From NCBI GenBank assembly GCA_023260985.1, contig JALRKY010000080.1:25976-89975 (forward strand): a stretch of DNA of 64,000 nucleotides. Reading direction: 5' to 3'. Numbering within the stretch: the stretch's first letter is position 1; each line of letters opens with the position of its first letter. The DNA is from Altererythrobacter sp. (GTDB lineage: Bacteria; Pseudomonadota; Alphaproteobacteria; Sphingomonadales; Sphingomonadaceae). Shown in pieces: positions 33,232-44,188 of the stretch. The notes below the pieces were generated by a model, which saw only the letters and a program-made list of their open reading frames with translations, had not been told where the DNA came from and did no database searches. Position numbers and translations under genes: made by a program.

Positions 33232-33562
33232 TGCGTGGTAGTTGCATCCTTGCTGGGAATGCCTGTGGAGAATGCAAGGCATAAACCACGGGAGAGGCCT
33301 GCCGACAAGTTTGGGGAGAGATTCCATGCCCGCTATCAGCTTTATCGCCAGTGAGTTTGTAGACATCGAGCGTCGCTATCAACAGGCTGGGGATAGCGCG
33401 AATAAGTTTGACTCGACCTAGGTAATCCCACGATTCGCAAGCCGGACGGTACTTTGCTCCGCGGGAAAAATCGGGCAGGAGCCACTTGTCCCCGAAATCC
33501 ACAAGGCCAACAGACTCCTAAATCCTTTTATAAATATAATTATATTGATTGGATAAGACATC
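33232..33562. other. Candidate chromosomal replication origin (oriC, Cori-type)
   Basis: Divergent DUF299 / hemE gap with a 40-nt stretch of about 82% AT (33521-33560), degenerate DnaA-box-like 9-mers (33264, 33376, 33495) and four GANTC sites (33320, 33410, 33432, 33513). Confidence 0.65.
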
Positions 33563-38565: not shown

Positions 38566-39843
38566 ATGAGCGACACCATCTTTGCACTTTCCAGCGGGGC
38601 TCCGCCCGCGGCGATCGGCGTGATCCGCATCAGCGGGCCGGCGGCCGGCGCGGCCTTGCGCGCGCTGGTCGGGCGCGATGTCGAACCGAGGCATGCCAGC
38701 CTGGTTAAGCTTCGTGGGGATGATGGTGCGCTTCTGGACGAGGCGCTGGTGCTTTGGTTCCCGGGCCCGAATACCGCGACGGGCGAAGACCTTGCCGAAT
38801 TGCATTGCCATGGCGGCCGGGCGGTGATTTCCGCCATTGAAGCGGAATTGGGTGCGATTTCAGGCCTGCGCCGCGCCGAACCGGGCGAGTTTACACGCCG
38901 CGCCTTTGCCAACGGGCGGATCGACCTTGCCGAAGCCGAAGGGCTGGCGGACCTTCTCAGCGCCGAAACCGAGCTCCAGCGCAGCGCGGCAATCGCCATG
39001 GCGGGCGGGAGATTCTCCCGGCAGGTCGAGTTGTGGCGCGACGGCGTGTTACGGCTCTCGGCCGAAGTGGAGGCGGCGCTCGACTTTGCCGATGAGGACG
39101 ATGTGGGCGGGTTGGCAGCCGATTTCGGCGCGCGTCTCGACCAGTTGGCGAGTGAACTGGCGCTATGGCTTGCGCGGCCGCGATCGGAACGGCTGGGAGA
39201 GGGTTTCCGCGTGGTGCTCTCTGGGCCGCCCAATGCCGGAAAATCCACTTTGTTCAATGCGTTGGTTGAGAGCGAGGCGGCCATCACTTCGCCCATTGCG
39301 GGGACTACGCGCGATGTGATCGAGCGCTCGGTGGCGATCGCCGGAATTCCCTTCACCTTCGTCGATACTGCGGGCCTGCATGAGGGAGGGGGCGACGAAA
39401 TCGAATCGATAGGGATTGGGCGTGCGCGCGAACAGCTCGAACGTGCCGATCTGGTTCTCTGGTTGGGGCCCGAATACGAGGGACCGAGTGGGTGTTGGGA
39501 GGTCGAGGCACAGATCGACAATCATGCGCATCTGGTTAAATCTGCGCCTGATTGGCGGGTTTCCGCGCGGACAGGGGAAAATCTGGGCGCACTGAAGGCC
39601 GGGCTGGTCGAGAAGGCGCGTCAGTGCATGCCGAGGCCCGGAGAGGCCGCGCTCAACGCACGCCAGCATGGATTGCTCGCCGACGCCAATATTGCGTTGA
39701 GCGAGGCTAGCGAGCTGTCTGACCCCCTCATTATTGCAGAATGCCTGCGCCGGGCGCGCACAGATATCGACCGTCTGGTCGGACGGGCGACCACCGAGGA
39801 CATGCTCGACGCGCTGTTCGGGCGTTTCTGCATCGGGAAATAG
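38566..39843 (+). CDS. mnmE: tRNA modification GTPase MnmE
   Basis: SDTIFALSSGAPPAAIGVIRISGP...GPPNAGKSTLFNALVESEAAITSPIAGTTRDVIE; C-terminal RFCIGK. Confidence 0.95.
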   Translation: MSDTIFALSSGAPPAAIGVIRISGPAAGAALRALVGRDVEPRHASLVKLRGDDGALLDEALVLWFPGPNTATGEDLAELHCHGGRAVISAIEAELGAISGLRRAEPGEFTRRAFANGRIDLAEAEGLADLLSAETELQRSAAIAMAGGRFSRQVELWRDGVLRLSAEVEAALDFADEDDVGGLAADFGARLDQLASELALWLARPRSERLGEGFRVVLSGPPNAGKSTLFNALVESEAAITSPIAGTTRDVIERSVAIAGIPFTFVDTAGLHEGGGDEIESIGIGRAREQLERADLVLWLGPEYEGPSGCWEVEAQIDNHAHLVKSAPDWRVSARTGENLGALKAGLVEKARQCMPRPGEAALNARQHGLLADANIALSEASELSDPLIIAECLRRARTDIDRLVGRATTEDMLDALFGRFCIGK

Positions 39844-39858
39844 ACGGCAACACCCCGA

Positions 39859-39874
39859 TGTTTCACGTGAAACA
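39859..39874. promoter_or_regulatory. parS: parS site (perfect)
   Basis: TGTTTCACGTGAAACA in the mnmE-mnmG gap. Confidence 0.95.
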
Positions 39875-39936
39875 TCGCGTCCCCGCTCTCGCGAAAGTTC
39901 TTTGACCCCGCGCCAGCGCGCCTGTATCGGCGCGAC

Positions 39937-41790
39937 ATGCGTAGCTTCGACGTGCTTGTGGTCGGCGGCGGTCATGCCGGTGTCGAGGCGGCCTGTGCGG
40001 CCGCCCGCATGGGTGCGCGCACGGGCCTGGTGAGCTTCGATCTCGACGCAATCGGCGCGATGAGCTGCAATCCGGCGATCGGGGGCTTGGGCAAAGGCCA
40101 TCTGGTGCGTGAAGTTGATGCGCTCGACGGGGTGATCGGGCGCGCAGCCGATGCCGGGGCAATCCATTACCGCATGCTCAACCGCTCGAAGGGGAGCGCC
40201 GTTTGGGGCCCACGCGTGCAGGCCGACCGCGTGCTGTTCAAGGCTGCGGTGCAGAGGGCGGTCAAGGCGCAAGCTGGGCTCGATCTGATCGAGGATGAGG
40301 TGGCAGCACTGCAACTCACTGCGGGTCGTGTTGCCGGGCTGGAATTGGCCGACGGCACGGCGATCGAAGCGGCGGCCGTTATCCTGTGCACCGGGACATT
40401 CCTCGGGGGCACGCTGTTTCGCGGTGAGGAACGCTTCGAAGGCGGACGGATTGGCGAGAATTCGGCACAGAAACTTGCAGCGCAGTTGCGCGGCGCGAAT
40501 TTGCCGATGGCGCGACTCAAGACCGGCACGCCGCCCCGGCTCGACGGGCGCACGATCGACTGGGCCAGTCTCGAAGAGCAGCCATCCGATCCCGATCACT
40601 GGACCATGTCGCCGCTCACCGAGCGTCGCGCCAATCCGCAAATCTTCTGCGCGATCACACGCACCACCGAGGCCGCGCACGAAGCGATCCGCGCGAATCT
40701 GCACCGTTCCCCGCTATTTACTGGAGCGATCGGAGCGGCCGGGCCGCGCTATTGCCCCTCAATCGAGGACAAGATCCATCGCTTTGGCGATCGTGAGGGA
40801 CACCAGGTATTCCTCGAGCCCGAGGGCTTGAGCACGCATCTGGTCTATCCCAACGGGATAAGCACCTCTCTGCCGGCTGATGTCCAACTCACCATGCTCC
40901 GCGCCATGCCGGGGCTTGAGCAGGTTGTGATGGAAGTCCCGGGTTATGCGGTGGAATATGATCACATCGATCCGCGTGCGCTCACGGCGGACCTGCAATT
41001 GCGAGCGATTCCGGGGCTTTACTGCGCCGGGCAGATCAATGGCACAACGGGCTATGAAGAGGCTTCTGCACAGGGGCTGGTGGCGGGGCTCCACGCCGCA
41101 GCGCATGTTTTGGGCCTTGAGGCACCACGGCTCGACCGGGCGAACAGCTATATCGCAGTGATGGTCGACGATCTGACCCTGCAAGGCGTGAGCGAACCCT
41201 ACCGCATGTTGACTGCGCGGGCCGAGTACCGCCTGCGTCTGCGCGCCAACAACGCTTCCACGCGCCTTACCCCGCTGGGGATCGAAGCGGGCTGCGTCGG
41301 AGCGGAGCGTGCGGAATGGTTTGCGCGCCGTGAAGAGCGCCGTGCAGCTTTGGCCGGGCATTTCGATACAGCGATCCATGCCCGCGAGTTGAGCGAGGCC
41401 GGCCTGCCGGTGCGGCGCGACGGCGGCACCAAGCAAGTGAGTGAATGGCTGCGGCACGAAGGAGTGGGCCTGGCCGATTTGAACCAATGGCTGGATCAGG
41501 AACTCTCCTTCGATGATCCGTTGATCGCCGAAATGGCCGAAGACGCGGCCTACGCCCCTTACCTTGCGCGGCAGGATGCCGAACTGCGCGATCTGCGTGC
41601 AAGCGAAGCGCTTGAACTGGCGCGTGATTTTCCCTTTGGCGAGGTTCCGGGGCTGTCCAACGAGATGGTCGAGCGGCTTGAGGCAGCAAAGCCCGCCAAT
41701 CTCGCGGCGGCGGGAAGGGTGCCTGGGATCACGCCCGCTGCGCTTTCGGCTCTGCTTGTTCATGCGCGCCGGAGGCAGAAGGCCGCATGA
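39937..41790 (+). CDS. mnmG: tRNA uridine 5-carboxymethylaminomethyl modification protein MnmG
   Basis: [26 protein letters not shown]...[23 protein letters not shown]. Confidence 0.96.
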
Positions 41791-42410
41791 ACGGGCAACT
41801 CCTGAGCGACGAGGTGTCGGCGCGGCGCTATGTGGAGCAGATCGCGGATCAGGTCGCGATGGAACGGCTTGAAGTGCTGATTGCTGAGCTTCTTGCCGAG
41901 AACCAGCGCCAGAACCTGATCTCGCACCCTTCCGAGGCGCAGGTGTGGCAGCGCCATATTGCCGACAGCGCGCAATTGCTGCGATTTGTTCCACGTGAAA
42001 CATCTGGCACCTGGCTCGACCTTGGCACGGGGGCTGGCTTCCCTGGCATGGTGATTGCTGCGATCGAGCCCGAGCGCGAAGTGGTGCTGGTCGAATCGCG
42101 GGCGCGCCGCGTCGAATGGCTCGAACGAATGGCGGAGAAGCTCGCGCTTCCGCTGTGTCGGGTCGAAGGCAAGCGGCTTGAGCTGGTCAAACCGTTCCCG
42201 GCGCGTGTCATTTCGGCACGCGCCTTCGCGCCATTGCCAAAGCTCCTGAAACTATCCGCACCCTTTTCCACAAAGGCGACCACCTACCTGTTGCCCAAGG
42301 GGCGCTCGGCGGCGCAGGAACTGGAATCAATCCCTGCAAAGATTCGTCGGATGTTTCACGTGGAACACTCCTTGACCGATGCAGAGGCGGGGATCATCGT
42401 AAGCACCTGA
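41787..42410 (+). CDS. rsmG: 16S rRNA (guanine-N7) methyltransferase RsmG
   Basis: ENQRQNLIS...[13 protein letters not shown]...[20 protein letters not shown] overlap with mnmG. Confidence 0.93.
41987..42002. promoter_or_regulatory. parS: parS site (one mismatch) inside rsmG
   Basis: TGTTcCACGTGAAACA. Confidence 0.85.
42352..42367. promoter_or_regulatory. parS: parS site (one mismatch) near the 3' end of rsmG
   Basis: TGTTTCACGTGgAACA. Confidence 0.85.
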
Positions 42411-42434
42411 GTGCGGGAAGGCGGAAAGCAGCCG

Positions 42435-43211
42435 ATGATCACGATAGCCATTGCGAACCAAAAGGGCGGGGTGGGCAAAACCACAACCGCGATCAATATC
42501 GCTACCGCAATGGCGGCGATCGGCTGGCGCACGCTGCTGATCGACCTCGACCCGCAGGGAAATGCCTCGACCGGGCTGGGTGTGGGCACCGCTGCGCGCG
42601 TCGCGTCGAGCTATGATGTGCTGATCGATGGTGTCTCGCTCAAGGATGCAATGGTTGCTACGAGCATTCCCGGACTCGATATCGTTCCGGCGACGGTAGA
42701 TCTCAGCGGTGCCGAAGTGGAGCTGGTTTCGGTAGAGGAACGGACTTCGCGCCTTGCCACTGCTCTTTCGGCGCATCGCGGGCACGATATCTGCTTCATC
42801 GACTGCCCACCCTCGCTCGGCCTGCTCACGCTCAACGCGCTTTCGGCCGCCGATACATTGCTGGTGCCGCTGCAGTGCGAATTCTTCGCGCTTGAGGGCC
42901 TCAGCCAGCTGTTGCAGACGGTGGAGCAGGTGCAGCAGCGCTTCAATCCCGCGCTCGGCATCATCGGCGTGGCGCTCACCATGTTCGATCGGCGCAACCG
43001 CCTGACCGACCAGGTGGCGGACGATGTACGCGAATGCCTCGCCGGCCTGGTGTTCGACACCGTGATCCCGCGCAATGTGCGCCTGTCCGAAGCGCCGAGC
43101 CACGGCTTGCCCGCACTGGTCTATGACCACTCTTGCGCCGGCAGCCGCGCCTATATCGCACTCGCGCGCGAACTCATCGGGCGCCTGCCCCGCGAAAGGA
43201 AAGCCGCATGA
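42435..43211 (+). CDS. parA: Chromosome partitioning ATPase ParA
   Basis: MITIAIANQKGGVGKTTTAINIATAMA...LLIDLDPQGNASTGLG. Confidence 0.95.
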   Translation: MITIAIANQKGGVGKTTTAINIATAMAAIGWRTLLIDLDPQGNASTGLGVGTAARVASSYDVLIDGVSLKDAMVATSIPGLDIVPATVDLSGAEVELVSVEERTSRLATALSAHRGHDICFIDCPPSLGLLTLNALSAADTLLVPLQCEFFALEGLSQLLQTVEQVQQRFNPALGIIGVALTMFDRRNRLTDQVADDVRECLAGLVFDTVIPRNVRLSEAPSHGLPALVYDHSCAGSRAYIALARELIGRLPRERKAA

Positions 43212-44188
43212 GCAACCCGACCGATCCGATCCGCTTTTCGGTGCCGGGCGTTGCAGCTACTGACCGGAAGAAGAAGCTCGGTCGCGGGCTGGGTGCCTTG
43301 TTGGGTGAAACCCGGCGCGAAGAACCGTTGGCGCAGCCTTCAGCCGACGTTTCGTCTGAAATCGGCGTTAAAACAGAATCTTACGCGACTTCGGGTCTCG
43401 CATCGCTACCTGTTTCGTCGATTGAACCGCTGCCCGGCCAGCCTCGCAAGCATTTCGACGAGGCTGCTCTCGACGAGCTCGCTGCCTCGATTGCCACGCG
43501 CGGAGTGATCCAGCCGGTGATCGTGCGCCCGCGTGGTGCAGGGCGTTACCAGCTGGTGGCGGGCGAGCGCCGCTGGCGCGCAGCGCAGAAGGCGCGGCTC
43601 CACGAAATTCCGGCGCTGGTGCGCGAACTAGACGAGCGCGAAGTTATGGCGCTCGCGCTGATCGAGAATATCCAGCGCGAGGATCTCAATCCGGTCGAGG
43701 AAGCGCGTGCCTACCAGCGGCTGAGCGATGACGAAGGGCTGACCCAGGCCGATATCGCGCGCATGGTCGAAAAGTCGCGCAGCCACGTCGCAAACCTCCA
43801 GCGCCTGCTGGCACTGCCCGATGCGGTGCTCGACCTGGTCGAGCAAGGCACGCTGTCGATGGGGCATGCGCGTGCGTTGATCGGGAATGACGATGCGATC
43901 GCGCTCGCGAAGCAGGCGGTGCGCGACAATCTCTCGGTGCGCGAAGTCGAGCAACTCGTCCGCGGCGATGCGGCGCCCAAACTACGCAAATCGGCAAAAC
44001 GCAACACGCGCGAGCCGGCCAAGGATGCCGATATCGCTGCGGTGCAGGCGCATCTCGAGGAATTCCTGGGCCTGACGGTGCGGATCAAGACTGAAACCGA
44101 TCCGCGCAAGGGGGCGGTAACGATTCGCTATCGCACGCTCGACCAGCTCGATTTGATCTGCCAGCGACTAACCGGCGGAGATATCTAG
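43208..44188 (+). CDS. parB: Chromosome partitioning protein ParB
   Basis: LGRGLGALLG...VSSIEPLPGQPRKHFDEAALDELAASIATRGVIQPVIVRP...LVAGERRWRAAQKARLHEIPALV. Confidence 0.95.
   Translation: MSNPTDPIRFSVPGVAATDRKKKLGRGLGALLGETRREEPLAQPSADVSSEIGVKTESYATSGLASLPVSSIEPLPGQPRKHFDEAALDELAASIATRGVIQPVIVRPRGAGRYQLVAGERRWRAAQKARLHEIPALVRELDEREVMALALIENIQREDLNPVEEARAYQRLSDDEGLTQADIARMVEKSRSHVANLQRLLALPDAVLDLVEQGTLSMGHARALIGNDDAIALAKQAVRDNLSVREVEQLVRGDAAPKLRKSAKRNTREPAKDADIAAVQAHLEEFLGLTVRIKTETDPRKGAVTIRYRTLDQLDLICQRLTGGDI

Follow-up and report, generated by a model that had tools for sequence, protein, structure and literature searches.

The three 16-mers found between mnmE and parA in the window (the whole 64,000-nucleotide stretch of Altererythrobacter sp. 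DNA that was analysed) almost certainly represent the parS centromere of this sphingomonad's chromosome, and two of the presumed ParB loading sites lie inside rsmG, where they would be read both as protein and as centromere. For the Alphaproteobacteria more widely, parS has probably left its mark on a housekeeping enzyme: on this reading it is the centromere, not methylation, that accounts for the VSRET-type peptide near the N-terminus of RsmG and, in sphingomonads, for the VPRET and FHVEQ peptides. In the course of evolution the centromere would have shifted among a few fixed codon positions in rsmG, the reading frame and the variant of the motif being settled by protein and DNA together.

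By analogy with other species, in which the mechanism is known, ParB encoded by the neighbouring gene would load onto the DNA at each site, forming a CTP-dependent clamp, and slide outward across mnmG, rsmG and parAB, and ParA would then pull the ParB-coated, origin-proximal block to a cell pole. With two of the three loading sites inside rsmG, the same bases would have to serve the protein and the centromere.

The parS sites and their neighbourhood

The sites lie in a series of five genes on the forward strand. The first is mnmE (38566-39843), coding for a tRNA-modifying GTPase with the Pfam domains TrmE_N, MnmE_helical and MMR_HSR1, and it is followed by mnmG/gidA (39937-41790; Pfam GIDA, E=5e-147). 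The 16S rRNA methyltransferase gene rsmG/gidB (41787-42410), which hosts two of the sites, is assigned by Pfam GidB (E=7e-33), by solved RsmG relatives and by an AlphaFold model with a pLDDT of 96.7. Adjoining the sites are parA (42435-43211), encoding a Walker-type partition ATPase (Pfam AAA_31, E=2.5e-57), and parB (43208-44188; Pfam ParB_N, HTH_ParB and ParB_C), whose product shows the GERRWRA box, the HTH and the dimerisation domains, so that both partition genes carry the expected domains. The best solved match of the window ParB is Caulobacter ParB (6t1f, E=5e-54), and its KSRSHVAN and MGHARA motifs align with KSRSHVAN and AGHARA of that protein. It also keeps Arg173 and Gly201 (Caulobacter numbering), the specificity residues of ParB and not of Noc; this Arg and Gly are absolutely conserved in parS-binding ParB and set it apart from Noc (PMC7383237).

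Site 1 (39859-39874), the perfect palindrome TGTTTCACGTGAAACA, lies in the mnmE-mnmG gap, 15 bases past the mnmE stop and 62 bases ahead of the mnmG start. Sites 2 (41987-42002, TGTTCCACGTGAAACA) and 3 (42352-42367, TGTTTCACGTGGAACA) fall in two different reading frames of rsmG, where they cover residues 67-72 (read as FVPRET) and residues 189-194 (read as MFHVEH), respectively; none of the three is assigned a strand. The earlier note had reported these three 16-mers, two of them in rsmG, and each was recovered at exactly the same position. When up to two mismatches were allowed, a search of the window returned the same three sites only, all exact to the consensus TGTTNCACGTGNAACA, while shuffled windows gave a mean of 0.09 matches and a maximum of 1. 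The genome-wide search for equally good matches that the earlier note had proposed was run on the whole assembly (2.07 Mb, 82 contigs, 95% complete) and found, with 0-1 mismatch to TGTTYCACGTGRAACA, these three sites and no other, clustered within 2.5 kb rather than scattered; because this assembly is in pieces and, at 2.07 Mb, falls short of the about 3.0 Mb of other members of the genus, it could lack further sites. Matches with two mismatches occur at four further places, which we attribute to chance because a reversed control pattern gives 5. A plasmid search gave distant matches only, none with 80% query coverage. Site 1 also overlaps the ATG of a 15-codon reading frame (39858-39905) upstream of mnmG, which is possibly meaningless, and a search for generic promoters and terminators in this gap found none. 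A ParB/parS centromere beside parAB, as the earlier note had proposed, thus appears well supported by the uniqueness of the sites in the genome, their conservation in relatives and a ParB of canonical type.

The replication origin is a candidate only, placed mainly by synteny with Caulobacter and Hyphomonas in the AT-rich gap before hemE (33450-33562, no strand assigned; GC 0.40-0.42), close to the minimum of the cumulative GC skew near 30-34 kb of the window. Neither the consensus DnaA box TTATNCACA nor a DnaA-box cluster was found in a search across the window, the gap included. The parS sites lie 6.3-8.8 kb from this gap, in agreement with the 6-9 kb to oriC given in the earlier note, while the identification of the gap as oriC continues to lean on synteny. 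Comparable distances have been described in Caulobacter, where ParB covers a region of about 10 kb at a distance of about 8 kb from the origin (PMC5815017), and in Hyphomonas, whose parAB genes are about 7 kb away from hemE (PMC6650430).

Fixed positions of parS in rsmG across relatives

The comparison comprised 147 loci, namely 140 family loci, six named loci and the window, and 145 of them contain all five genes of the mnmE-mnmG-rsmG-parA-parB block. The nearest named relatives of the genome (Altererythrobacter, Erythrobacter and Sphingomonas) place it among the sphingomonads. Exact sites are present in 134 of 151 family genomes, mostly 1-5 per genome; the reversed control pattern gives no such match. 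In a class-wide sample, 117 of 153 genomes carry exact sites. A few genomes (G300, G154, G238, G158 and G098) carry 7-13 exact sites. Conversely, exact parS is absent from 17 of the 151 family genomes although these are nearly complete (G009, G011, G024, G025 and 13 others), and some of these lineages must use degenerate sites. In many loci a single outer base of the site is changed (the first T or the last A), which suggests that the outer positions of parS are relaxed.

The mnmE-mnmG gap holds 110 exact sites among the 147 loci. Within RsmG, 208 of 214 sites (exact or with one mismatch) occur at only three codon positions, each in a single frame, which we call slots N, M and C. Slot N lies at residues 18-19 in frame 2, is occupied in 61 of the 147 loci and encodes V[SP]R[EG]T; slot M lies at residues 66-67, also in frame 2 (55/147); and slot C lies at residue 189 (once 187) in frame 1 and encodes FHV[EK][HQ] (92/147). 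The rsmG of the window carries the pair M and C (sites 2 and 3). N and M never occur together in one rsmG gene among the family loci; for independent-pair tests of replacement among the three slots, the supported pairs were too few.

In the class sample, N is the usual slot (45 of 70 loci), and most of these loci have a further site about 1.6-2.1 kb ahead of the rsmG reading frame, at the expected place of the mnmE-mnmG gap. Since N is the commonest slot across the class and mostly comes with an upstream site, N plus gap looks like the ancestral arrangement in Alphaproteobacteria, with M and C later, the polarity being read from this wider sampling. Three alphaproteobacterial loci (L231, L232 and L247) have three parS-like sites in one rsmG gene. 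Outside Alphaproteobacteria, a parS-like site within rsmG was found in four of 27 loci from other classes of the phylum (L317, L318, L321 and L323), in each case near the 3' end of the gene, so placement in rsmG recurs.

One public record calls for a separate remark. Bases 1-1479 of L010 (JALRCU010000033.1), a contig titled as a Holophagaceae MAG, are 100% identical over 1,479 bases to window positions 41108-42586; the break falls within parA, and from there on the contig consists of unrelated DNA with a GC content of about 50%, whereas L011, a close relative, stays collinear. L010 looks like a chimeric contig.

Codons, peptides and the choice of parS variant

The earlier note had suggested comparing rsmG codon choice in relatives. 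In that comparison the parS codons GTT YCA CGT GRA AC account for 115 of the 118 V[SP]R[EG]T peptides found in RsmG, where codon usage predicts 0.1, and GTT, TCA, CCA and CGT are minority codons. Likewise, FHV[EK][QHP] is written in parS codons in 93 of 95 cases vs 7 expected. The peptides follow the sites as closely as the codons do. The peptide of slot N is found in 58 of 61 loci with parS there vs 0 of 86 without it, that of slot M in 52 of 55 vs 3 of 92, and that of slot C in 92 of 92 vs 5 of 55. In L011 the M peptide is unchanged, a CGT to CGC substitution breaks parS, and an extra exact parS lies inside mnmG. From the fixed codons, the absence of the peptides where parS is missing and the case of L011, we infer selection for parS at the DNA level, which on these comparisons explains codons and peptides alike. 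At the few fixed positions that it occupies in RsmG, parS holds rare codons in place and, as judged from the aligned genes, imposes V[SP]R[EG]T or FHV[EK][HQ].

The constraint also acts in the opposite direction. The degenerate base R of the motif decides between Glu and Gly in slots N and M and between Glu and Lys in slot C, and R=G accounts for 18% of sites in N, 11% in M and 88% in C, compared with 57% in the noncoding mnmE-mnmG gap (C vs N+M, p about 1e-20 in a Fisher test that ignores relatedness). Of the 53 genomes in which M and C are both occupied, 41 combine A in M with G in C. Mapped on a MnmG+ParA tree, where the counts are parsimony minima, R changes 6 times for 61 rows in N, 11 times for 55 in M, 10 times for 92 in C and 33 times for 136 in the gap, while the Y base, which is synonymous in C, changes there as often as in the gap (23 changes for 92 rows and 37 for 136). 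Coding sites in frame 0, in which R=A would make a TGA stop, occur outside rsmG and have R=G in all seven cases; none of the family rsmG sites is in frame 0. The base R is thus chosen so that each frame retains glutamate, the protein constraining which parS variant occurs. The earlier note had argued that the same bases serve coding and ParB binding, pointing to the one substitution in each intragenic site; the sharing is borne out by the frame dependence of R, but the single substitutions prove nothing, because the two bases concerned also vary in intergenic sites of relatives (Y=C in 50% of mnmE-mnmG sites, and R=G at the gap frequency given above).

In the AlphaFold model of the window RsmG, slot N corresponds to the turn from the first helix into the second, slot M to the loop joining helix 47-67 to the first strand (76-79), and slot C to the strand 190-194, where FHVEx-S matches the F-x-[IV]-x-x-S pattern of RsmG relatives without parS. 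The model suggests that parS may persist where the RsmG fold tolerates the peptides that parS can encode.

The agreement of the C-slot peptide with that strand pattern is what speaks for a protein-first origin of the sites, in which RsmG needs VPRET and FHVEH and the resemblance to parS follows from conservation of the protein. We hold this to be extremely unlikely, and it is largely refuted by the slots without parS, from which the peptides are mostly missing, by codons fixed far beyond codon usage, and by L011, in which the M peptide is retained while parS is broken and an exact copy stands in mnmG. It is also very unlikely that the sites are mainly ParB-bound transcriptional operators of an rsmG-parAB operon, with the centromere elsewhere. 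Such repression of neighbouring genes has been shown for the intergenic parS3 and parS4 of Pseudomonas aeruginosa (PMC7022226); in our case, however, the genome offers no other good site, two of the three sites fall within a gene, and a search around site 1 found no sigma-70-like promoter. The sites may nevertheless have a secondary regulatory effect. As for palindromes arising by chance in a GC-rich genome, nothing was found in favour of this reading and its probability is practically nil: three exact sites stand against the 0.09 expected even with two mismatches allowed, their position and frame are conserved across the family, and the shuffles together with the conserved slots refute this reading.

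Known systems and significance

Intragenic parS, including a site within gidB/rsmG beside parA, has already been published (PMC4409726, PMC4368675). In Thermus thermophilus HB27, the chromosomal parSc lies within gidB (rsmG) and ParB binding has been demonstrated by EMSA; as in the window, parS is situated in the 16S rRNA methyltransferase gene just upstream of parA, and its distance from oriC there is about 6 kb (PMC4409726). However, T. thermophilus belongs to another phylum and has one site, one base off consensus, whereas here two rsmG sites are accompanied by a site in the mnmE-mnmG gap. Among Alphaproteobacteria, the ParABS system of Caulobacter crescentus is similar in its cluster about 8 kb from the origin, in the same motif with T/C variation and in a closely related ParB (PMC5815017, PMC7383237); it has seven putative sites, and binding is proven there but deduced here. 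Hyphomonas neptunium has two perfect parS just upstream of parAB, about 7 kb from hemE (PMC6650430), compared with three sites here, including slots M and C. In P. aeruginosa, nine of the ten parS fall in coding sequences, and synonymous recoding was applied to them; its set is larger than ours and partly origin-distal (PMC4368675). Selection for parS even within coding sequence has also been proposed for repABC plasmids (PMC9040568). We found no paper on fixed codon slots or a peptide footprint in the literature covered, which is partial and does not include the main parS survey (Livny 2007). The arrangement itself is of a known kind, to which the fixed slots and the peptides of RsmG add a useful evolutionary footprint.

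The locus offers a natural case in which one stretch of DNA would be both protein code and centromere, with a measurable trade-off between the two, and synonymous recoding can separate the coding and the centromere functions. The location of the centromere would become readable from protein alignments, and residues of RsmG that appear conserved, such as VSRET and FHVEQ, may be unrelated to methylation.
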